NCBI GenBank assembly: GCA_905234175.1
Contig: CAJOGX010000016.1
Location: 1 to 39,753, forward strand
Length of the DNA stretch: 39,753 nt
Source: an uncultured Selenomonadaceae bacterium
GTDB lineage: Bacteria; Bacillota; Negativicutes; Selenomonadales; Selenomonadaceae
Reading direction: 5' to 3'
Positions 4,395 through 39,753 of this stretch are shown here, in pieces. The position numbers and the translations under genes are program-made. The notes under the pieces were generated by a model. That model was given only the letters and a program-made list of their open reading frames with translations, did not search any database and had not been told where the DNA came from. Numbering within the stretch: the stretch's first letter is position 1; every line of letters begins with the position of its first letter.

Positions 4395-5235
4395 TGTGCG
4401 TTCTCCACTTCAGGAAAAAATCTAAAAAACTTTTCTTATGCTGGTGGACAAAGGCTGGGCGAAGTACCGACGCCAGCGTTTCGCCGTTGAGGTGGCGCAT
4501 GAGCCGACCGTTTTCCGCAACAGAAATCGTGCCGGTTTCCTCGCTGACAACTAAAACCAGCGCGTCGCACTGCTCAGAAATTCCGATAGCCGCGCGGTGC
4601 CGCGTGCCAAGTTCCTTAGACAGCCCACGCTTTTCCGTCAGCGGAAGTAAACAACCCGCCGCGTAAAGTCTGTTCCCGCGAATTATCGCCGCGCCGTCGT
4701 GCAGTGGCGTGTTCACGAAAAACACGTTGCCCAGCAGTTCCGCAGTGATTCTCGCGTCAAGTTTTATTCCAGTGTCCGCCACGTCGTTTAAGCCCATTTC
4801 CCGCTCGATAACCATAAGCGCGCCGGTTTTCGTGGACGACAGCGCCTTCGACGCCCGCACAAGTTCTTCGACGACTTTGTTTGCCTCTTCCTCGTCAAGC
4901 ATTTCGCGCTCGGAAAATAAAAATTTCCCCTGCCCAATTCGCTCCAGCGTCCGCCGCAATTCCGGCTGAAAAACTATCGGCAGCAACACGAACATCCACG
5001 TCATTATTTTTTCAAAAATCCACGATAATAAATTCAACTGCAGCACGTTGCAGAAAAAATTCGCCATGAACAGCACTAAAATTCCCTTGACAAGCGTTAT
5101 CGCGCGCGTGCCTTCAAGCATCGCGTATAATTTATAAAGTATAATCGCAACAAGCAAAATTTCCAGCACGTCCGACGGCCGAATCGTCGAAATCAGCCCA
5201 GCGACCTGTGCCGGAAGCGATATGTTAAACGGCAT
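4378..5235 (-). CDS. cdaA: Diadenylate cyclase CdaA (DAC domain, membrane-bound)
   Basis: Condenses two ATP into c-di-AMP, the second messenger for potassium, osmotic and cell-wall homeostasis. Residues 1-80 carry about three membrane segments; the DAC domain follows with the catalytic DGA motif (LHDGAAIIRG, about residue 178) and the RHR motif (GTRHRAAIGISE, about residue 210). I prefer the ATG at 5235 (MPFNISLPA), which has a GGGGG ribosome site 7 nt upstream; an ATG at 5241 and an open extension up to 5325 exist, but the extension runs into the upstream radical SAM gene and is not conserved-looking. With this start the protein is 285 residues, near the family length. Operon partner cdaR overlaps its 3' end. 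Confidence 0.93.
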   Translation of the reverse strand: MPFNISLPAQVAGLISTIRPSDVLEILLVAIILYKLYAMLEGTRAITLVKGILVLFMANFFCNVLQLNLLSWIFEKIMTWMFVLLPIVFQPELRRTLERIGQGKFLFSEREMLDEEEANKVVEELVRASKALSSTKTGALMVIEREMGLNDVADTGIKLDARITAELLGNVFFVNTPLHDGAAIIRGNRLYAAGCLLPLTEKRGLSKELGTRHRAAIGISEQCDALVLVVSEETGTISVAENGRLMRHLNGETLASVLRPAFVHQHKKSFLDFFLKWRTHNAGTN

Positions 5236-5266
5236 GCGCATTCCCCCTTGTTTTAGTTTGGAAAAT

Positions 5267-6169
5267 CTATCGCACGCCCGAACCGTCGAAGCGCGGAATA
5301 AATTTTTCCTCGGCAGTTCTTCCAAGCTGAATATAGCAGTTTTCTACGCCAATTTCAAGCGCGTGTTTAACAACGGAATCGTACTCAAAAGTCGTGAGGC
5401 GGCGGGAAATTTTTTTGTGCTCGCCCGCGCGAAAAACCGGCGTGTACTGGTTCATGAGGCTGATAAAAACCCTGTTACCAAAATTTTCGTAAAGCCAGTC
5501 CAAAATCTTAATGCTGTCGTGGCGGAAATTGGGTAAAATTAAATGGCGTACGAGGACGCCACGGGTCATATTGTCGGCCGCGCTGAAACGGGGCTCGCCG
5601 ACGAGTTCAAACATTTTGCGAATGGCGGCGCCTGCCACGGCGAAATAGTTAGGCGCGCGCGAAAAAGTTACGGCGAGTTCGTCGCTGAAATATTTCAGGT
5701 CGGGTAGAAAAATATCGACGCGGTCGCGCAGAAGTTCGAGCGTCGAAAGATTTTCATAGGCGCTGGTGTTATAGACGACGGGAAGTTTCAGTCCGTTCGT
5801 TTTAGCTAGGTCGAGAGCAACGCAGATTTGCGGAACGTAATGAGTCGGCGTGACGAGTTCGACGTTGGCGGCACCGCGCGCCTGCTGTTCAAGAAAAATT
5901 TCGGAGAGCCGCTCAATGGAAATTTCCTCCCCGCGCCCGCCGCTGCTGATTTCAAAATTCTGGCAGTAAACGCATTTTAAATTACAGTGCGAAAAGAAAA
6001 CCGTACCGGCACCGTTTTCCCCGACGAGGCAGGGCTCCTCCCATTTGTGCAGGCTGACAAGCGCGACGCGAATTTTTTCACCGGCGCCGCAAAATCCCGC
6101 GCGTTCTGTTCTGTCTGCACCGCACCTGCGCGGACAAAGTTCACAGCTTTTCAGCAAATCCAAAATCAT
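5267..6169 (-). CDS. Radical SAM protein, PflA-like (COG1313)
   Basis: 300-residue radical SAM enzyme. The iron-sulfur motif CNLKCVYC is seen at about residues 83-90, and an extra N-terminal cysteine cluster (CELCPRRC ... FCG) is typical of the COG1313 'putative pyruvate formate-lyase activating enzyme' family. Substrate unknown. Its ATG overlaps the TGA of the upstream YvyF-like gene (ATGA, 6169-6166), so the two are translationally coupled. cdaA starts about 31 nt downstream. No glycyl-radical enzyme lies in the window, so a PFL-activating role is not supported by context. Confidence 0.85.
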   Translation of the reverse strand: MILDLLKSCELCPRRCGADRTERAGFCGAGEKIRVALVSLHKWEEPCLVGENGAGTVFFSHCNLKCVYCQNFEISSGGRGEEISIERLSEIFLEQQARGAANVELVTPTHYVPQICVALDLAKTNGLKLPVVYNTSAYENLSTLELLRDRVDIFLPDLKYFSDELAVTFSRAPNYFAVAGAAIRKMFELVGEPRFSAADNMTRGVLVRHLILPNFRHDSIKILDWLYENFGNRVFISLMNQYTPVFRAGEHKKISRRLTTFEYDSVVKHALEIGVENCYIQLGRTAEEKFIPRFDGSGVR

Positions 6170-6675
6170 GGATTGTTACGGTTCTTCAAAAGGGTCTGCG
6201 CGAAATTGCGTCTGATATTGGCGGAGCGGGTTTCCTTTTCAAATTCGCGTTCAGCGAGGGCGTCGAGGCGCTCAATCGTCGACATTTTCCGGTCTTCCTT
6301 AATGCGAATCTGCATGGATTCGGCGGCCTTGCGCGTCTGAGTTCTGAGTCGACTGAGGCAGTCAGTGCAGTAGGTGCCGGTGTGAATTGGGCGCCCGCAG
6401 CCCACGCACGGATACATAAAATCTTCGCCGCTGCCCGTGTTGGAAAAAATTCCTTCCTGCATCATTCTTTTCAGCATTTTATCGGTCGCGCCGGTCGCCT
6501 CCATGACTTCCTTCATTGAAGTGCCAGGGTTATCGCGAATATATTCAACAACTTTCTGCTCAAATGCTTTAGCCTCGTCCGTGCACTCTCTGCAAATCTT
6601 TTCGCCGCGCAGGGAAGTGAAAACCTTCCCGCATTTCGTGCAATTTCTAAGCTTCGGTCCACTCAGTAAAGCCAC
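6166..6675 (-). CDS. YvyF-like flagellar-operon protein (TIGR03826 family)
   Basis: 169 residues, zinc-ribbon-like protein. Visible are CTKCGKVF ... CREC near the N-terminus, a middle helix-turn-helix-like segment (GTSMKEVMEATGATDKML), and a second cysteine set CVGCGRPIHTGTYCTDC. This matches the TIGR03826 family usually found beside flgM and other flagellar genes in Firmicutes; its function is poorly known and may be regulatory. No flagellar genes are nearby here. I place the start at the GTG at 6675 because a perfect GAGGTGAT ribosome site lies 4 nt before it; an in-frame GTG at 6684 would sit inside that site. It is coupled to the radical SAM gene by an ATGA overlap. Confidence 0.8.
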   Translation of the reverse strand: MALLSGPKLRNCTKCGKVFTSLRGEKICRECTDEAKAFEQKVVEYIRDNPGTSMKEVMEATGATDKMLKRMMQEGIFSNTGSGEDFMYPCVGCGRPIHTGTYCTDCLSRLRTQTRKAAESMQIRIKEDRKMSTIERLDALAEREFEKETRSANIRRNFAQTLLKNRNNP

Positions 6676-17508: not shown

Positions 17509-20500
17509 TTAGCTCCAGGTCTGGTTGGTAGTGGACGCGGTGTAAACCTGATAGCTGCCGTCGCCCTTGTTGACTTCAACCTGAGCGCCGTTGGCATTCT
17601 TAATCGTGAGGGTACCGCCGCCGGATTCCGCCTTGAGCTGAATCTGCACATCGTCGCCGTTGAAGTACGCCTGTCCCTGTACGAGGTCATCAAGCGTAAT
17701 ATCGCCGAGGCGGATACGGTCGTTGGCGGCGTCGAAGCCGGTAATTGTGTCGTTGCTGCCGCACTTGGTGAAGAAGAACATGTCGGTGCCGGCGCCCGCG
17801 ATAAGCTCGTTGTTGCCGTAGCCGCCGCCCCAGAGACTTGAGCTGTTGCCTTCGCCGCCGGCCGTGATTGTGTTGTCGCCAGCGCCGCCAGCCAAAGTCA
17901 GCTGCGCGTTCGTTGCCGCAGAAGCGTCGATTACGCCAATGCCTTCGTAAACCTTGCCGTGATGTCCGTCGAGCCAGACAGCAACGTTATCTTCAGTCGC
18001 CGCAATGCTGAGAGTGTCAGCCGCGCCTTCCTGGTTACCAACATACACGAACGTTTCCTTGTCGTAGGTGAAGTTGTTCTTCGCGCCGGAAGTCTGTCCA
18101 ACCTGCATGATTCTTTCTTCGCCGTCGTAGCCCAGCTGGTAAAGAATCTTGTTGTTCGCGTTAATGCCGGCGTCTTCGTGAAGAGTGAGCTTGCTGTTGC
18201 CGTCAACCTTAATTTCGATATTGTTGCCGTTCGCGGTGATAGCGCTCGTGCCTTCCTGCCAGTTGTAAACAATAATCTTGTCCGCCGCAACTTTGTCCGC
18301 GTCGGAGGCGCTGCCCTGGTAGTAGCCGAAGTTGTCAACAATGTCGCTGCCGTCGTTTTCAAGACCGAAGTAAATCGTGCTGCCTGCAACGCTGGTCGAA
18401 GTGCCGCCGCTGACAATGCTGTCGTTGCCGCCGCCCAGCGAAACGTGCTTGCGGGAATCAGCGCTCGCCGTGCCGCCCAGTACCAGAACGTCCTTGTCGC
18501 CGGTGCCTACCAGCGTCGCCGCGCCGCTGTTGTTGAGTACCACGTTGTGAATATTCTCGTAGTTGCCGCCGTTAAGGCTAATCGTGTCGGCAATGTCGTT
18601 AACGCCGTCGGTGAAGGTCAGCGTCGCGTTCACGTCCGCCGCCGTGTAGTACATGTCCGCAATGTCGTCGTTGCTGGTAATCTGCACGTTCTTGCTGCTG
18701 CGGAGGTAGCTGAGTTTAGTGCTGTCGTCGGGCGTGCCAAGCAGCAGGTCGAAGACTTCGGTCGCGCTGTCGTTGTCAACGAAGTAAATCGTGTCGTTGG
18801 AATTGTGCGCGATGAGCGTGTCTTCTTTGTTGTCGAAGGTCAGCGCTCTGGCGTCGGTGTTGAGGATGTTGTTGCCGCTGGCGTTGTCGAAGCCGAACTC
18901 AAAGTTGTGGATGTAGGTTCTGCCGCCGCCCAGCTGTACAACTGCGCCTTCCTCTTTCTTAGAGTCGTTCGCCGCAGTGATATAAATTTCGTCGCTGCCG
19001 GAGCCCGCGTTCACGGTGTCGTTGCCGCCCACGAAAATCGTATCGTTGCCGCTGGAGCCAACAACGCTGTCGCTCGCGCCGTCGTTCTGGTCAGCAACCA
19101 TGAGCACGGCGCCTTCGCTGAATGCGTTGGTGTTGACGTTGCCGCCGTCAGCCGCCGCCCAGGTCAGCTTGTGAATATCCTGCGCGCTGCTGTCGGTGAA
19201 GCGGACGTTCAGCGCGCTGACAGTTGCGTCGGAGCTGGTATCCGCGCTGTTGAGCGTGAATTTGCCGCCGCCTGCAATGTTAATCGTGTTGTCCTTAACG
19301 GTAATCTTGTCGACGAGAGTTTGGGCGTCGAGGTTCTTGTTAATATCCGCGAGCTTGCTGGCAACAAGTACGTCGCCCTGAGCCGCGCTGTAATCGCTAA
19401 TCGCATAAGCACCGTTCGCGTCGAAGAAATAATCTGCGCCAGCGCCGCCGGTAACTTTGTCGCCCTTCTTCGCGGCGATGGAGTCGTTGCCCGCGCCGCC
19501 GATAAGCGTAGCCGTGCCGCCTTCGTTAGCAAGGTAGGAACCGACGCTGCCGGCCTGCGCGTAGTTGTTGCCGCGAGCGTTCGCGCCGAATTTGATATAG
19601 TTAGCGTTGTTGCCGCCGAGGACGGTGTGATTGACGCCGGTCGTGCCGGTAAGCGGGTCAATCGCCACGACGCTGGGCGAACCCTTGCTCACGTCGATAA
19701 CGGAAGTGCGGATGCTCGTGTCGGAGTCTTCAAAGATAACAATATTGTCATTGGTGAAGGACTGGAGCGTAACGGCGGTGAGGTCGTCGGAATTAAGCGC
19801 CGCGTCGCCGTAAATGTTGATACCGCCTTCGACGCTGGAAGATGCCGAAGTGGAATCGCTGGCGTTTTCGTAGCCCGCAACCGTGGAGCTCGGTGCGCCG
19901 GAATTTTCCGTGCCGAGTTTCTGATAAAGTGCAAAAACCGGCTGAGAAGCTGCCAGGGCGGCGGCTTCAACGGAATCGATAACGCCTTCGCGCGCGTCTT
20001 CGTTTTCTTTTACGCTCTTTTCGACGGCGGATGCGTTGCCGTGCTGGTCGAAGGTGATATAGCCGAGCGTTTCGGTTACGGCGACTGCCGCGCTCTTGCC
20101 AATCTTGTAATTGCCGCCGGAAACGGTGAGCGTATCGCCGGTGCCGAAGCTGACGCCGGTAAGCGTGACGTTGGAGCCGTTGACGCTGAGCGCTAACGGG
20201 TCACCTGTATAAGTCGCGTCTTCGCCAATTTCAACAGTCGTATTGTTGACATTGAGCGTAACGGCGGTGTCGTAATCGGGCATTTCGTACGTGACAACAA
20301 ATTTATCGTCGCTGCTGGTGTTAATCGTCGTGGCAACGGCAACATCGTAGAATCCGGTAACCTTATCGTCGCCGTTGGTGAAAACCATAACGTCATCAAT
20401 ATCGTCCGCGTCCGCCGCCGCCAGAGTTACGCCAGCGCCGTTGACTGTGACAGCCGCCGTAGTTTTTTCCGTATCAGCGAAAGTGAGAGCCGCCGAGCCG

Positions 20501-23500
20501 CCGGTAATAACGATATTGTCGCCGTTCTGAACTTCCTGCACATTAACAACCGGCGAATCTTCGTAGAAGAGGAATCTAGCGTCGGCGCGTGCGCTGTTGG
20601 AATAGGTGTAGTCGTTGAGCTTGAAGCTGTTGTCGCCGTTAACGGTAATGTAACCTTCGCTCACGCCGGAAATCGCAGCGATACCAGCGTTGTGCGCTTT
20701 TTCTTCGAGCGTGAAGGTAACGCCGTTTTCGTTGTTGCCGTCGTACGCAACATCAATGCCGTTGACTTTAATTGTAGCGTCAGAGTTAGAAACGTTGACA
20801 ACGGCCGCGCCGGAATCTGCGGAGGAAGTGCCGAGAACTTCGAGCGTGGAATCAGAATCAGCGGAAACTGTAACGTTGCCTGTTGCGTCGAAGAATAATT
20901 CAGAAACTCCTCCGTTGACAGGGCTTGAGGTACCAGGAATGGTAAATTCTTCGACAGCGGCGTTTTTAATCGTCCAGGTTGCGTCGCCAACGGTAAGACC
21001 GTTAACAGTAGCTCTGTCTGCAACAGTCGACAGGGTGATATTATCAGAAAGTCCCTGAATAGAACTAATGACATTACCATTGGATTTGTCAGCGGTGATA
21101 ATCGCGCGGGTGCCGTCGCTGTCAGCTGCTCCGCCAAATTCAATAAACTGAGCTCCAACACCAACTGCTCCAGCTTTAGCAGTCCAGCTGCCGCCAGCCG
21201 CGAGGGAAGTTGCGTGAATAACTTCATCTTCCACAACGGAAACCTGCGCGCCCTTGGAAACTGTCAGCACGTCGCCGGTCGTTCCGGAAGTGAAGGTAAC
21301 ATTCTTGCCGGAGTCGAGCGTAGCGGAGCCGGAATATCTGTCGTCGCTGGTGAGCGTAACATTTCCGTCCGTGTCGAACACAGCGAAATCGTCAAAGTTA
21401 TCGTCGTAGCCGGCAATATCCCAGGTTGCCTTGCCGTTCACGTTAATATCGCCTGCCGTGAGGGAAGTGCTGGTATCTTCAGCATTAACCACAAGGGTGC
21501 CGCTTGAGAAGTTAGCCTTAGCAATGCTGCTTCCGTCGCTGGAGTCGGCGGTAAGAGTAACAGCGCCGGAGGCGGAATGAGCCCAGGTCTTGCCAGCATA
21601 GGAAACCTCGTTGGCATTGGCAACCCATTTGCCGTTGGCGTCAAGGGAGTCGACAGCGACAATGGCGGCGTCGGAGCCGGAGCCTTCGATAGTGGCGGTG
21701 GCGGCGGAATTAAGAACAACGGAATCGGAATTGACGGAGATAGTGGCGCCATCTTCGGCAACGGTGAGTTCAACGCCGTCGTCAGCGCCTTCGATAGTGG
21801 AATTGGCTTTGGCGGCGCCTTGGATAGTGACGCCGTTGACGGCGATAAGGTCAGAGCCGGCGGAAGAGTCTTTGGAGGCAAAGAGGAGGGTGCCTTCGTC
21901 AAGGGCGGCGGAAAGAACAGAGCTGGCAGAGTCGGCGGCGGAAAGGTAAACGTCACCGTCGGCGAAGTAGGCAGCCCTGTCATAAGAGAGAGCGGTGTCA
22001 GAGGAATCGTTGAGAATCCAGTGCTGTTTATCGTCGATAGAATTGAGAGTAACAGCGCCCTCAGCCTGGGCGATAACAACGCCGGCGGTTACAGCCCCAA
22101 GGCTGACGGTACCGCCCTTGTCGGCGGTGGAGTAGTCGAGGTTGGCGTCGTTGAGGTTAAGAGTGACGTGCTTACTCTCGGCAGTAAGAGCAATATCGCC
22201 GTGGAGACCAATGAGCGCGGCGGTGTCGCTTTCTGCGGAAACAATGACGTATTCGCCGTCTTCGAGACCGGAGACAGTGCCAACGCCTTTAAGTACGAAG
22301 TCTTCGCCGGTACCGCCAATAAATGCGGGCGAGGCAAGGGAAGTGTTTTCAGTGTCACCGTCGGTAACGGCTTCCTGAATGGTAACGGGCGAATCAGTAC
22401 TGGAATCGGAATCGCTGAACTGGTAGTAGGCGGTAACGGTGGCGGTTTGCTCGTGAGTCCAGTTCTCGCCGTCGTAAGTATATGTAACGCCGTCAACTTC
22501 CTGCGTGTCGCCTTTGTCGGCGGTGTAGTACTCAGCAACAATGGCGGCGGCGGTATCAGAATCGGCGTTTTCGGTAACTTTGTCGCCGTAGTACCAAACG
22601 CCGTTGTCAGCGTTATAGGTGTAGGTGACGCCGTCGAGTTCGCGCGTATCGCCGTCGCTGGGCATATAGTAAGCGGCGAGAATCGCGCTGGCAACAGCCT
22701 CATCAGCGGCAACGGATTCGGTGCTGACATAAGACCATTCGCCGTTGTCAGCGTCATAGGTGTAGGTGACGCCGTCAACTTCCTGCGTAGCGCCGTCAGC
22801 GGGAAGATAGTCTTTAATAATAGCGGCGGCGACTTCATTGGTAGCGGTTTTGGTAACTTCGTCCTCGTAAGTCCAGTTATAGTCGGCTGCCTGATAAGTA
22901 TAAGTTTTGCCGTCAACGTCAGCGGTAGCGCCGTCGCTGGGAATGTAGTAAGCGGAGAGGATAGCGGTAACGATTCCGTCGTCAGCGGCGACAGGGGTAG
23001 TAATGGTAGTGTCATACGTCCATTCGCCGTCAACCTGAGTGTATTCAGTGCCGTCGTAGGTAACTTTGTCAGCAACGGTAGTGGCGGCGTCAACGATGTC
23101 AGCGATACGCGCGGCGTCGGTTACAGTTTCGGTGACAGTGGTGGTAGTGTCGTACGTCCATTTGCCGTTGGAATAGATGTATTTAGTGCCGTCGTAGGTA
23201 ACTTCGTCAGCAACGGTAGTGGCGGCGTCAACGATGTCAGCGATACGCGCGGCGTCGGTTACAATTTCGGTGACAGTGGTGGTAGTGGCGTACGTCCAGT
23301 TGCCGTTAGTATAAGTGTAAGTTATACCGTTAAGGGTAGTTTCAGTGTCAACAGTGGTAGCCGCGGCAACGATGTCAGCGATAACAGAAACGTCGGTTTC
23401 GGTTTCGGTAACATTTTCTAAGTAGCTCCAGGACTCGGTGGCGGCGTCATAGGTGTAGGTAACGCCGTCAACGTCAACGCTGGCGCCGTCGGTTATTAAC

Positions 23501-24768
23501 GCGGCGAGAATACCGGCGATAGTAGCGGTGTCGGTAACGACTTCGCTGGCGGAATCGAGCCAGTTCGCGCCGTCATAAGTATAAGTTTCGTTGTCAAAAT
23601 CAACGCTGGGGCCGTCGGTGAGGTTTTTAGTGAGGTAGGCTTCAACGGCAGCGGCGGCAATCGCGCTGTCAGAGGCGGCGGTTTGTTCTTCGGTAGTGAT
23701 GTACGTCCAGAAATCGCCGTCCTTAGTGTAAGTGGTGCCGTTTACAGTGACTTCGGATTCGACGGTAGTAGCCGCTTCAGTTATAGTGTCAATGAGTTCG
23801 GCGTCAGTGACAGTGGTGGTAGTAGTAACTTCGGTGTCATAAGTCCAGTTGCCGCCAATATAAGTGTAAGTAATGCCGTCAAGGGTAGTTTCGGAGTCAA
23901 CGGTGGTAGCTGCGGCGGCGATAGCGTCAACGAGGGCGGTGTCGGTGACGGTAGCGGTAGTGGAGACTTCAGTTTTATACGTCCAGTTGCCGTCAATATA
24001 AGTGTAGGTTATACCGTCAAGGGTAGTTTCAGAGTCGACAGTAGAGGCGGCGGCGGTTATGGCGTCAATGAGTTCGGCGTCAGTGACGGTAGTTGTAGTG
24101 GTGACTTCAGTTTCATACGTCCATTTTTCACCGTTATAGGTATATGTAACGCCGTCGTAGTCCTGCGTATCGCCAACGCTGAGGACAGATTCGAGGTAGG
24201 CGGCGTAAGCGGCAGCGGCGTGTTCTTCGTCAGCGGTAAGGGTTTCAGTGTCAGTGTAAGTCCAGTTACCGTCAGTATAAGTGTAAGTAACACCGTCGTA
24301 GTCGACAGTTTCTCCTTCGGCAGGGAGGTATATCTCGGCGAGAGTTGTAAGGGTATCGGTATCAGTAAGAATTAAAGTGGTTTCTGAAGGGTAAGTCCAT
24401 TCGCCGTTGGTATAAGTGTAAGTAACTCCTTCGTAGGTCTGAGTGTCGCCTTCTTCGGGGTCATAAAGGTCGAAGAGAGCCTCAGCAATTTCAGCGGTAG
24501 CGGCGGCGGTGGTATCTGTTTCATAAGTCCAGTTGCCGTCATTATAAGTGTAGGTTATACCGTCAATTTCCTGCGTGTCGCCTTCTTCGGGTTCATAGAA
24601 AGCCTCAAGTGCCTCAATAACGGCGGCATCTGTTTCGGTAACTGTCGAAGTTTCGCCGGTTTCAGTGGAAGTGCCTTCAACTACGACGTTGCTTTCCGAC
24701 GCGCTTACAGTCGGGGTATCGGGAAGAGCAAAGAGCTGCATATCCAAACCAAAGATTTTTTCAGTCAT
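17509..24768 (-). CDS. Giant repeat-rich RTX-type surface or secreted protein
   Basis: 2,419 residues, acidic, rich in Thr, Ser, Asp and Gly. A short N-terminus (MTEKIFGLDMQLFALPD) has no Sec signal. Residues about 75-770 hold 16 tandem copies of a roughly 46-residue unit with the core DGVTYTYxxGxWTYE followed by a Thr-rich linker. Residues about 790-1750 are beta-strand-rich repeats (patterns such as GNVTVSADSDSTLEV). The C-terminal third has RTX-like calcium-binding nonapeptide pieces: GGAGNDSI and TGGAGADYFFD (about 1766), GSSGNDTIFVGGNDTV (about 1910), LGGGNDSIVSGG (about 2110) and GGAGDNTITAGG with AGAGTDMFFF (about 2310), followed by ITGFDAANDRIRL. This layout points to export by a type I secretion system using a C-terminal signal (inference); no ABC exporter genes are adjacent. 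Strong SD GGAGG 10 nt before ATG. Likely an adhesin or S-layer-like protein; function unproven. Confidence 0.88.
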   Translation of the reverse strand: MTEKIFGLDMQLFALPDTPTVSASESNVVVEGTSTETGETSTVTETDAAVIEALEAFYEPEEGDTQEIDGITYTYNDGNWTYETDTTAAATAEIAEALFDLYDPEEGDTQTYEGVTYTYTNGEWTYPSETTLILTDTDTLTTLAEIYLPAEGETVDYDGVTYTYTDGNWTYTDTETLTADEEHAAAAYAAYLESVLSVGDTQDYDGVTYTYNGEKWTYETEVTTTTTVTDAELIDAITAAASTVDSETTLDGITYTYIDGNWTYKTEVSTTATVTDTALVDAIAAAATTVDSETTLDGITYTYIGGNWTYDTEVTTTTTVTDAELIDTITEAATTVESEVTVNGTTYTKDGDFWTYITTEEQTAASDSAIAAAAVEAYLTKNLTDGPSVDFDNETYTYDGANWLDSASEVVTDTATIAGILAALITDGASVDVDGVTYTYDAATESWSYLENVTETETDVSVIADIVAAATTVDTETTLNGITYTYTNGNWTYATTTTVTEIVTDAARIADIVDAATTVADEVTYDGTKYIYSNGKWTYDTTTTVTETVTDAARIADIVDAATTVADKVTYDGTEYTQVDGEWTYDTTITTPVAADDGIVTAILSAYYIPSDGATADVDGKTYTYQAADYNWTYEDEVTKTATNEVAAAIIKDYLPADGATQEVDGVTYTYDADNGEWSYVSTESVAADEAVASAILAAYYMPSDGDTRELDGVTYTYNADNGVWYYGDKVTENADSDTAAAIVAEYYTADKGDTQEVDGVTYTYDGENWTHEQTATVTAYYQFSDSDSSTDSPVTIQEAVTDGDTENTSLASPAFIGGTGEDFVLKGVGTVSGLEDGEYVIVSAESDTAALIGLHGDIALTAESKHVTLNLNDANLDYSTADKGGTVSLGAVTAGVVIAQAEGAVTLNSIDDKQHWILNDSSDTALSYDRAAYFADGDVYLSAADSASSVLSAALDEGTLLFASKDSSAGSDLIAVNGVTIQGAAKANSTIEGADDGVELTVAEDGATISVNSDSVVLNSAATATIEGSGSDAAIVAVDSLDANGKWVANANEVSYAGKTWAHSASGAVTLTADSSDGSSIAKANFSSGTLVVNAEDTSTSLTAGDINVNGKATWDIAGYDDNFDDFAVFDTDGNVTLTSDDRYSGSATLDSGKNVTFTSGTTGDVLTVSKGAQVSVVEDEVIHATSLAAGGSWTAKAGAVGVGAQFIEFGGAADSDGTRAIITADKSNGNVISSIQGLSDNITLSTVADRATVNGLTVGDATWTIKNAAVEEFTIPGTSSPVNGGVSELFFDATGNVTVSADSDSTLEVLGTSSADSGAAVVNVSNSDATIKVNGIDVAYDGNNENGVTFTLEEKAHNAGIAAISGVSEGYITVNGDNSFKLNDYTYSNSARADARFLFYEDSPVVNVQEVQNGDNIVITGGSAALTFADTEKTTAAVTVNGAGVTLAAADADDIDDVMVFTNGDDKVTGFYDVAVATTINTSSDDKFVVTYEMPDYDTAVTLNVNNTTVEIGEDATYTGDPLALSVNGSNVTLTGVSFGTGDTLTVSGGNYKIGKSAAVAVTETLGYITFDQHGNASAVEKSVKENEDAREGVIDSVEAAALAASQPVFALYQKLGTENSGAPSSTVAGYENASDSTSASSSVEGGINIYGDAALNSDDLTAVTLQSFTNDNIVIFEDSDTSIRTSVIDVSKGSPSVVAIDPLTGTTGVNHTVLGGNNANYIKFGANARGNNYAQAGSVGSYLANEGGTATLIGGAGNDSIAAKKGDKVTGGAGADYFFDANGAYAISDYSAAQGDVLVASKLADINKNLDAQTLVDKITVKDNTINIAGGGKFTLNSADTSSDATVSALNVRFTDSSAQDIHKLTWAAADGGNVNTNAFSEGAVLMVADQNDGASDSVVGSSGNDTIFVGGNDTVNAGSGSDEIYITAANDSKKEEGAVVQLGGGRTYIHNFEFGFDNASGNNILNTDARALTFDNKEDTLIAHNSNDTIYFVDNDSATEVFDLLLGTPDDSTKLSYLRSSKNVQITSNDDIADMYYTAADVNATLTFTDGVNDIADTISLNGGNYENIHNVVLNNSGAATLVGTGDKDVLVLGGTASADSRKHVSLGGGNDSIVSGGTSTSVAGSTIYFGLENDGSDIVDNFGYYQGSASDADKVAADKIIVYNWQEGTSAITANGNNIEIKVDGNSKLTLHEDAGINANNKILYQLGYDGEERIMQVGQTSGAKNNFTYDKETFVYVGNQEGAADTLSIAATEDNVAVWLDGHHGKVYEGIGVIDASAATNAQLTLAGGAGDNTITAGGEGNSSSLWGGGYGNNELIAGAGTDMFFFTKCGSNDTITGFDAANDRIRLGDITLDDLVQGQAYFNGDDVQIQLKAESGGGTLTIKNANGAQVEVNKGDGSYQVYTASTTNQTWS
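22450..24570 (-). repeat. 16-copy tandem coding repeat inside the giant protein
   Basis: Sixteen diverged units of about 135-140 bases encode [acidic-Ala helix]-[GDTQEVDGVTYTYDxxNGxWTYE]-[Thr-rich linker]. Best-preserved neighbours are units 5-6 and 10-12, where whole stretches (VTDAARIADIVDAATTVAD) recur almost unchanged, which points to recent duplication within the array. The YTY...WTY core suggests a small beta-hairpin module. Confidence 0.85.
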
Positions 24769-38097: not shown

Positions 38098-39270
38098 TCA
38101 AAAATTTCCTTTCGCGCGGTTGTGAACTTTGCAAAGCATTTGGCAGTTGTCAGCGGTCGACGCGCCGCCCCTGCTCCACGCCTCGACGTGATCCGCGTCC
38201 ATTTCGCTGTACTTCCAAATCTTTTTCGCGTTCCTGCCGCCGCCCTGCGCACAAAGCGGGCAGTTGCTCTTACCAATTTGCTCAGCAATTTTTTTCTGCC
38301 GCGCGTACGCACTTTTCTTAACCGACTCCTCGAAAAATCTCACGTGCAAAAGTTTCGGCTCAGTGCCGCCGCCCAGCACGTATTCAAAAATCCCGCGCTT
38401 ATCCGTTACCGCGTCGTCTTCGTAAAGTTTTTCAATCTCAGCTTTCAACTCGGCGGCGTCGTAGGAATTTCCGTGATAAGTTTCGTACAGCCGCCCCCAC
38501 TCAAGCCCGCACATTTCGTCGTAAACTTCGGGGAACGTAGTTTCTACCCAGTGAATCACGCCGTCGAAATAATTTTTCAGCTCGTCAATATTGTCGTCGT
38601 GCCGGTGCCGGCTCATATAATCATCTATCGCCTCGCGCTCGGAACTTTTCACCACCCAGCTCAGCGCGACCTGCAAAATTTCCTGCCGCTGCAAATTCCC
38701 TCTGACGTAAGAGCGCCACATAGTCTGCCTATAATTCTGGCTGTTGCTGTACTCCGCCTTCGCCAGCGTCACAAAACTCCCGCTGTACACCGAATTTGAA
38801 ATCTCCTGCGCGTTCAATGCAATTCCGGCAATGTTAATCGTCTTGAACCACGCCTTAATTTCGTCCTCCGTGCCCTCGCAGATATAAATTGTCAGCGGCG
38901 TCTGCAAAATCAAATCCTGTAAATTTTTCGCCAGCGACTTGTAATACTGCTGGTGTCCCCCCTCATCCTTAATCGGAAATAAATTTTTAATATACCTGCC
39001 CAGGCTGGTAATGCGCTGCTGCCCGTCCAAAACTTCGTACCGCCCGCCTACTCTGTTAAAATACAGCAGACCAATCGGATAGCCGCGCAAAATCGAATCA
39101 ATCACTGCCGTTTCCATGTTCGCGTCGGCATACAAATAATTTCGCTGATATTCCGGCTGTATCGTCAGCCGCCCGCTCCAGCCAAAAAGCCCCTTGTTCT
39201 CCGCCTTGTCAAATTCAAAGCCTTCGCATATGTCCGCCACCGTCAAATCAGTTTTCAGCGTCGTTTTCAT
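38098..39270 (-). CDS. DUF262 and HNH endonuclease domain protein
   Basis: 390 residues. The N-terminal DUF262 (ParB/GmrSD-like) domain shows [26 protein letters not shown] and [15 protein letters not shown]; the C-terminus is an HNH nuclease with [16 protein letters not shown] (catalytic His) and [12 protein letters not shown]. This is the architecture of many phage-defence and type IV-like restriction nucleases that use the NTP-binding DUF262 domain. It starts directly after the methyltransferase C-terminal cassette C (TAA then ATG), with AGGTGAT as ribosome site, so it was probably translated along with a methyltransferase as a restriction-modification or defence pair. The target is unknown. 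Confidence 0.88.
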
Positions 39271-39459
39271 TTAATCACCTGCCCGCCTGAAGCGAATAAA
39301 AATCCTTTTATAAATCATTTTGCCCTCAACACTGACGTCCCACGGGTGATTTTCATAGTGACAGCCAGGGTCGCCGTACTGATAAGAACAGCCGAGAATT
39401 TCAAACTGCTCTGGGTTGTACTTATCCAGAAAAGTTATCGGCACCCCCATGACGCCGCT
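39271..39459 (-). pseudogene. Methyltransferase C-terminal cassette C
   Basis: Encodes GVMGVPITFLDKYNPEQFE followed by ILGCSYQYGDPGCHYENHP and VEGKMIYKRIFIRFRRAGD, then TAA. This is the C-terminal part of an EcoRI-family adenine-specific DNA methyltransferase, without the catalytic part. The ATG at 39450 could start translation only by chance; there is no clear ribosome site. It is the copy directly joined to the DUF262-HNH gene, and its frame is different from that of cassette B. Confidence 0.7.
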
Positions 39460-39656
39460 GCGCCTTCCAGCGAATAAACAGCCGCTTGTATTGTCGCTCG
39501 CCGTTGATAACCGGCTGGGCAATTCCGCTGCTGCTGTCCCACAATCCGTTTGAGAATCCCTTGCCCTCGCTTTCGCTCGCTCCGATAAGCTCGAACTGCT
39601 CGGGGTTGTACTTGTCGAGGAAGGTGATTGGCACCCCCATGACGCCGCTACACTTT
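39422..39656 (-). pseudogene. Methyltransferase C-terminal cassette B
   Basis: Second copy of the same end region: GVMGVPITFLDKYNPEQFE, then a different middle LIGASESEGKGFSNGLWDSS, then INGERQYKRLFIRW. After IRW the frame runs into the first bases of cassette C in the wrong frame and stops (HGGADNFSG). Cassettes B and C share the boundary AGCGGCGTCATGGGGGTGCC and are offset by 190 bases, i.e. one base out of frame. Confidence 0.68.
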
Positions 39657-39753
39657 CTGCCGAATGAGGATTCTGAAGTATGGCGTAACTCTCCTGAGCT
39701 GAGCTGAGCTGAGCTGAGCTGAGCTGAGCTGAGCTGAGCTGAGCTGAGCTGAG
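39648..39753 (-). CDS. Partial methyltransferase C-terminus, cassette A, entering from beyond the window
   Basis: The minus-strand frame coming from the window edge runs through the pentanucleotide repeat and ends RVTPYFRILIRQKV with TAG at 39650-39648. YFRILIRQK is the same kind of last strand as YKRLFIRW in cassette B and YKRIFIRF in C, so this should be the end of the expressed methyltransferase copy, whose body lies outside. Confidence 0.55.
   Translation of the reverse strand, partial: SAQLSSAQLSSAQLSSAQLRRVTPYFRILIRQKV
39695..39753. repeat. Pentanucleotide tandem repeat (TGAGC)n reaching the window edge
   Basis: Almost twelve uninterrupted 5-base units (59 bases visible). On the minus strand it reads (CTCAG)n and encodes LSSAQ repeats without a stop in any of the three frames. 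Unit length 5 means every gain or loss shifts the frame. The window ends inside it, so the real length and what follows are unknown. Confidence 0.92.

Follow-up and report, generated by a model that had tools for sequence, protein, structure and literature searches.

The 39,753-base stretch analysed here (the window; positions 1 to 39,753 of the 40,309-base contig C16) ends within a gene that is predicted to encode an EcoRI-family adenine methyltransferase, recognized by its match to PF13651, and whose 3′ end carries three tail modules in three reading frames behind a pentamer repeat. We read the locus, with a probability of roughly 70%, as a Type II-like restriction-modification pair in which repeat number would drive a three-way switch of the methyltransferase's C-terminal target-recognition tails, so that cells would switch and specificity would change with the tail. 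In living cells, slippage would add or remove repeat units and thereby shift the downstream frame. In frame A, the enzyme would end in the body's own tail; in frame B, module B would be added; and in frame C, the B DNA would be read in another frame as a linker, after which module C would be added. A homologous end strand closes each frame, so the full switch would have no plain OFF state. In the B and C states, the first module would most likely be displaced in the fold by the added one and be left as a loose loop. Most likely the tails determine part of the DNA target, and the methylation motif would then vary across the cell population. In its fullest form, this would be a three-position specificity selector in which, whatever the repeat number, the methyltransferase stays active and its motif changes, and the nuclease follows without itself reading the tail-defined part of the target; we put the chances of this form at about even. 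Such a selector would use all three frames allowed by the genetic code.

All three window tails are confined to the last 483 bases and are read on the minus strand. The (CTCAG)n tract (39694..39753, minus strand) consists of 12 perfect copies and is open in three frames. It is the sole short-unit array found in the window by TRF, and (CTCAG)4 occurs at one site only in the whole genome assembly (48 contigs, 82% completeness). Just past the end of the window, the tract borders on a 46-base N run, which hides how many repeats this locus really has and which frame it is now in. Tail A has a short end (39648..39693, minus strand), with the last strand YFRILIRQKV followed by a stop. Module B (39422..39640, minus strand, ATG at 39640) is of the tail type GASESEGKGFSNGLW...YKRLFIRWK, and module C (39271..39450, minus strand, ATG at 39450) of the type GCSYQYGDPGCH...YKRIFIRFRR, in the +1 frame relative to B. 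B and C each align to the final ~65 positions of PF13651, at 40.5 and 38.3 bits, respectively, against a cut-off of 26.4 bits. The frame C ORF (39271..39753, minus strand) runs from the tract through the B DNA, out of B's frame, into module C and its stop at 39271. At the A/B junction (39630..39652, minus strand), the A stop and the B start lie in overlapping frames with the pattern TGYARYGGNRTNATGGGNGTNCC. Elsewhere in the window, a 2419-aa ORF (17509-24768, minus strand) holds 138-bp tandem repeats (23004-23383 and 23780-24123) and is overlapped by long antisense ORFs; it may perhaps encode a large repeat-rich surface protein.

A preliminary description of this DNA had placed the end of tail A at 39648 and the start codons of B and C at 39640 and 39450, an offset of 190 bases, and we re-read all of these as given. 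It had also traced three frames out of the tract into A, B, and C. The frames stood, but the end of B had to be corrected: the usual stop 10 nt before C is lost in the window, and the ORF is 12 residues longer, to 39422. The boundary sequence common to the modules is present as it was described and could plausibly provide recombination homology for the spread of modules. The assignment of the tails to an EcoRI-family methyltransferase agrees with the scores of B and C and with a PF13651 body that we found just beyond the window, out of sight of that description; the body does join the tract, across the N run. This body occupies C16:39800-40309, and its N-terminal part continues on contig C41, the first 64 bases of which are an exact copy of the last 64 of C16. 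The two parts score 239.6 bits (C16) and 174.7 bits (C41) and cover profile positions 138-303 and 2-158. The motif NPPF, which we take to be the catalytic motif, lies in frame in the open body on both contigs.

Next, we searched with the window's module B against 84,980 species genomes, which gave at least 541 relatives, and the best 80 were kept (L043-L122). Among the loci fetched, overlapping tail modules occur in 16 distinct loci including the window (L123, the window, with L125, L126, L044-L050, L052-L054, L057, L071, and L147). These loci share ancestry, so counts over them are not independent tests, and we give no combined probability. Three are from cultured isolates, named in their records as Catenisphaera adipataccumulans DSM 25799, Selenomonas flueggei ATCC 43531, and Hydrogenoanaerobacterium saccharovorans An564; the remaining titled loci are metagenome bins, with L071 labelled Spirochaetaceae and L046 labelled Corallococcus, a label that we doubt. 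A tract is visible in 15 of the 16 loci, the contig of L126 starting past the expected tract site. The units are GACA or its rotations, CTCAG, AGCAG, AACGG, AG, and a 7-mer (2, 4, 5, or 7 nt), and in 15/15 visible tracts the unit lies within the methyltransferase reading frame and is never a multiple of 3.

The switch junction appears to be rare and scattered. Of 380 genomes searched within the class, 5 carry the A/B junction pattern (reversed control, 0); a slightly looser pattern hit one of 398 genomes drawn from the phylum, the window's own (reversed control, 1 genome). PF13651 is present in 39 of 99 genomes in a search of the window's own genome and its relatives. Several candidates were set aside. 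Seven viral contigs carried the junction pattern; four of them (L151, L155, L156, and L157) were dropped, since no tail-module pair was seen there, although L156 and L157 show one motif each. The contig of L152 opens at a junction and carries the last module only. L111 was kept apart from the 16, since its B and C modules lie 190 bases apart, it has no tract, and its C frame does not stay open from a hand-set start to C. Inspection of L079, L086, and L096 showed no switch. Searches with the L047 module B hit no phage and 13 plasmid records.

The geometry of the modules is conserved. From the A stop to B's GVPIT motif there are 10 nt in 15 of the 16 loci (L057 is without that stop), the same spacing separates the B stop from C in 13 of 14, the exception being the window, and each successive module is shifted +1 from the previous one. 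An end strand of the form [YF]xRxx[IV][RK] closes A in 16/16 loci, B in 15/16 (L071 is one residue off), and C in 14/14. L052 and L054 are without module C. The third frame of L054 has no end strand. In L052 (5851-5993, an AG16 tract), the third frame bears a second copy of the tail A end strand, so every frame there has a proper strand.

Module C can be reached only if the B DNA is free of stops in a second frame. The preliminary description had seen this frame open through B into C in the window, and the observation extends to all 14 loci with C, over 72-93 codons. With synonymous recoding of the B frame under the codon use of each locus, 0.74 of the 14 would be expected to be open; for this test, we placed the end of the L126 tract by hand and omitted the L111 value, which carries no meaning, from the 0.74. 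In the comparable region of 68 single-tail controls, three were open in +1 and none in +2. The open C frame is beyond chance.

Natural assemblies also carry the alternative ends. Leaving out the window, eight loci have body and tract on one contig: three are assembled in state A (L050, L052, and L147), three in state B (L047, L048, and L125), one in state C (L071), and one in a third frame without a module (L054). Given that L054 is assembled in a frame without an end strand, not every frame is always used. The proposed fusion of B or C to a methyltransferase body is seen as in-frame joins in L047, L048, L125, and L071. On viral contig L153 (reverse strand, 5166-6621), there is no tract, and a single ORF runs from the body through the B DNA out of frame into C; we read it as a frozen C state. 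Taken together, the 16-locus geometry, units that are never a multiple of 3, the open C frame, and the assembled A, B, and C states lend strong comparative support to the earlier proposal that repeat number selects the C-terminus.

To type the tails, we compared those of the switch loci with 97 other family tails, including those of fused genes L088 and L094, using a grouping threshold chosen by us. Tail type 1 (GATESEGKGFSNGLW) accounts for 14 of 16 B modules and 53 of the 97 other tails, the window's B being of the same type as those 53; the query was the window's module B, so type-1 tails are over-represented in both sets. Different B types are present in L125 and L147, which were reached by separate routes. 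The window's C type recurs in 7 of the 97. Types shared with other family members make up 14/16 of B, 8/14 of C, and 2/8 of the readable A tails, and types seen in switches only make up 6/8 of A and 6/14 of C.

L017 and L131 have nucleases that are 93% identical and bodies that are 88% identical, with unrelated tails. Their DNA is 83-100% identical per 60-base step over nearly the whole region, except for two blocks: one ~165-280 bases before the GVPIT motif, and the tail. The nuclease gene shows two smaller dips, to 70% and 77%. By this comparison, the enzyme has two variable blocks, an internal V1 and a terminal V2, and the switch would alter V2. In L060, the hypervariable block V1 lies inside the EcoRI-family body at residues ~190-220, and residues ~71-110 are also poorly conserved. 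V1 varies independently of the tail, as L130 and L131 have the same tail type and different V1. The tails thus look like swappable alleles, and because V2 is both variable and mobile, it most likely sets part of the DNA target.

Tail modules are also arranged in other ways within the family. In two Bacteroidales methyltransferases (L088, 5098-6558, and L094, 2345-3763), two modules are fused in one frame with no tract, and a one-frame pair of modules also occurs on viral contig L154. Mycoplasmopsis agassizii (L121) has three tail modules ~1.2 kb apart (3617, 4795, and 6003), with nuclease fragments upstream. The Mycoplasmopsis group reads TGA as tryptophan, and L121 was read with table 11. Two genomes of the same genus as the window (G054 and G006) have 12 and 8 EcoRI-family matches, several of them at contig ends, and the genus seems rich in such systems.

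Directly past module C's TAA is the ATG of the partner nuclease (38098..39270, minus strand), a 390-aa protein with GmrSD_N and HNH domains that matches the PADLOC model REase_II at 6.5e-83. Among the nucleases of ten relatives, GmrSD_N was found in 10/10 and HNH in 9/10, and REase_II was matched by 4/4 nucleases scanned. Pfam scans of tails and nucleases returned no HsdS model. In 14 of the 16 switch loci, a nuclease ORF of 300 aa or longer lies downstream; that of L049 has no Pfam HNH match. L126 has a split nuclease, and in L125 no nuclease turned up within the 3.5 kb fetched. These two are also the exceptions in position: by eye, the nuclease start overlaps the C stop or lies within 6 nt of it in 12 of the 14 loci with C.

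We then compared nucleases, bodies, and tails across 68 single-tail systems, each with a nuclease ORF of 300 aa or more; multi-module loci, loci lacking such an ORF, and duplicates were left out. Nuclease identity follows body identity (Spearman 0.75) and hardly follows tail similarity (0.08). Tails likewise barely reflect how closely the bodies are related. Because the nuclease sequence barely tracks tail type, a fixed, matched specificity of the two enzymes is doubtful, and the nuclease may instead take its target information from the methyltransferase or sense methylation more generally. Otherwise, a switch of tails would expose the cell's own DNA to the nuclease.

To view the added module in its context, we modelled the natural B state of L047 with AlphaFold. 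The body is mostly confident, and the first module, tract, and linker (283-394) have pLDDT values below 50. Module B is modelled as strand-helix-strand-strand with moderate confidence (block means of 41-76 pLDDT). In this model, the new module seems to replace the first one in the fold, and the alignment used, which pairs single tails with module B, favours that outcome. For the A state, two alignments were set aside, as the last strand was misaligned; in the resulting model of L050, the tail is weak (pLDDT 40-52) with a similar order of elements. A Foldseek search with the B-state model returned no match at E ≤ 0.001, the best hits being general SAM methyltransferase folds.

One unlikely alternative accepts that the switch is real and has the tails set nuclease contact, activity, or stability, not the DNA target. 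No relative of either the L047 methyltransferase or the window's nuclease turned up when the PDB was searched by sequence, and the nuclease start lies so close to the C stop that frame C, the only one to bring ribosomes there, could couple the two genes in translation and add an effect on nuclease level. However, the diversity and swapping of the tails are as expected of recognition modules, and a contact surface matched to the nuclease should have left a correlation between nuclease and tail, which the 68 single-tail systems hardly show.

A still less probable reading is that a single frame works, with the tract acting as a conventional ON/OFF phase switch and the remaining modules supplying inactive ends. 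Control by repeat number of this kind is the usual one for phase-variable methyltransferases in the parts of two reviews drawn on here (PMC13076061, PMC11868660). The module-less frame of L054 and the weak model of the A-state tail fit it as well. Against it, useless ends would decay, yet the conserved end strand is kept in all three frames, and the C frame is kept open. Furthermore, L052, without C, has a second A end strand in its third frame, and L153 is fixed in the C state.

We give little credence to a third account, in which B and C are kept silent as donor cassettes, recombination exchanges the expressed tail for one of them, and the tract is incidental. The boundary sequence common to the modules, the many tail types present in other genes, and near-identical systems that differ mainly in the tail and one internal block would all suit such a store. 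However, silent cassettes need neither an open frame through B, nor a fixed 10-nt spacing, nor a repeat unit that is not a multiple of 3, and B or C is joined in frame to the body in four assemblies. Finally, an assembly artefact from a collapsed repeat can be dismissed for the architecture, even though the window tract runs up against an N run and the contigs of six relatives start inside the tract, since complete versions are present in the three isolates on contigs of 82-417 kb; such contig ends are as expected if tracts vary or resist assembly, and are not proof of variation.

The three-way switch, if true, would matter in several ways. Known methyltransferase repeat switches mostly turn one enzyme on or off. 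If all frames give complete and different ends, a population could hold several methylation patterns at once at no OFF-state cost, a direct route to varied gene expression and phage defence. It would also make testable how a restriction system survives a changed modification specificity, and the switch is available in cultured isolates. Many of the same tails in other family genes would serve as a natural parts list for target choice in this enzyme family.

By title and abstract start, none of the open-licence PMC papers listed dealt with a three-frame tail switch in an EcoRI-family methyltransferase, and among them we met no account of a methyltransferase with three nested recognition-type tails. 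The nearest precedent is C-terminal phase variation, in which a simple repeat near the 3′ end gives alternative C-termini in three frames, as described in portions of reports on Helicobacter canadensis (Snyder et al. 2010, PMC2823697) and Neisseria gonorrhoeae (Zelewska et al. 2016, PMC5320596); in NGK_1211, one frame fuses to the downstream gene. In the rows of the H. canadensis table at hand, the frames add ~1 to 22 residues (PMC2823697), whereas here they end in homologous modules of one protein family. Unlike in that system, the modules here form a +1 ladder of overlapping frames, and the enzyme is a DNA methyltransferase.

Repeat-switched methyltransferases appear in the same portions of the two reviews as ON/OFF Type III enzymes and recombining Type I specificity genes (PMC13076061, PMC11868660). 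Type III mod phasevarions likewise have a simple repeat in a DNA methyltransferase gene, which turns the enzyme ON or OFF, whereas here the repeat at the 3′ end would pick one of three ends. Type I hsdS specificity is switched by recombination (PMC13076061, PMC11868660). In both that system and the one proposed here, a reversible DNA event would alter the specificity region of a modification enzyme, but here the enzyme is a single-chain, Type II-like methyltransferase with three states from one tract and no inversion. In NgoAV, the specificity of a Type I hsdS is reportedly switched by a homopolymer. Within the EcoRI family itself, the body and modules B and C match PF13651 like other members, most of which, among those seen here, have one tail, whereas the switch loci have three in overlapping frames.
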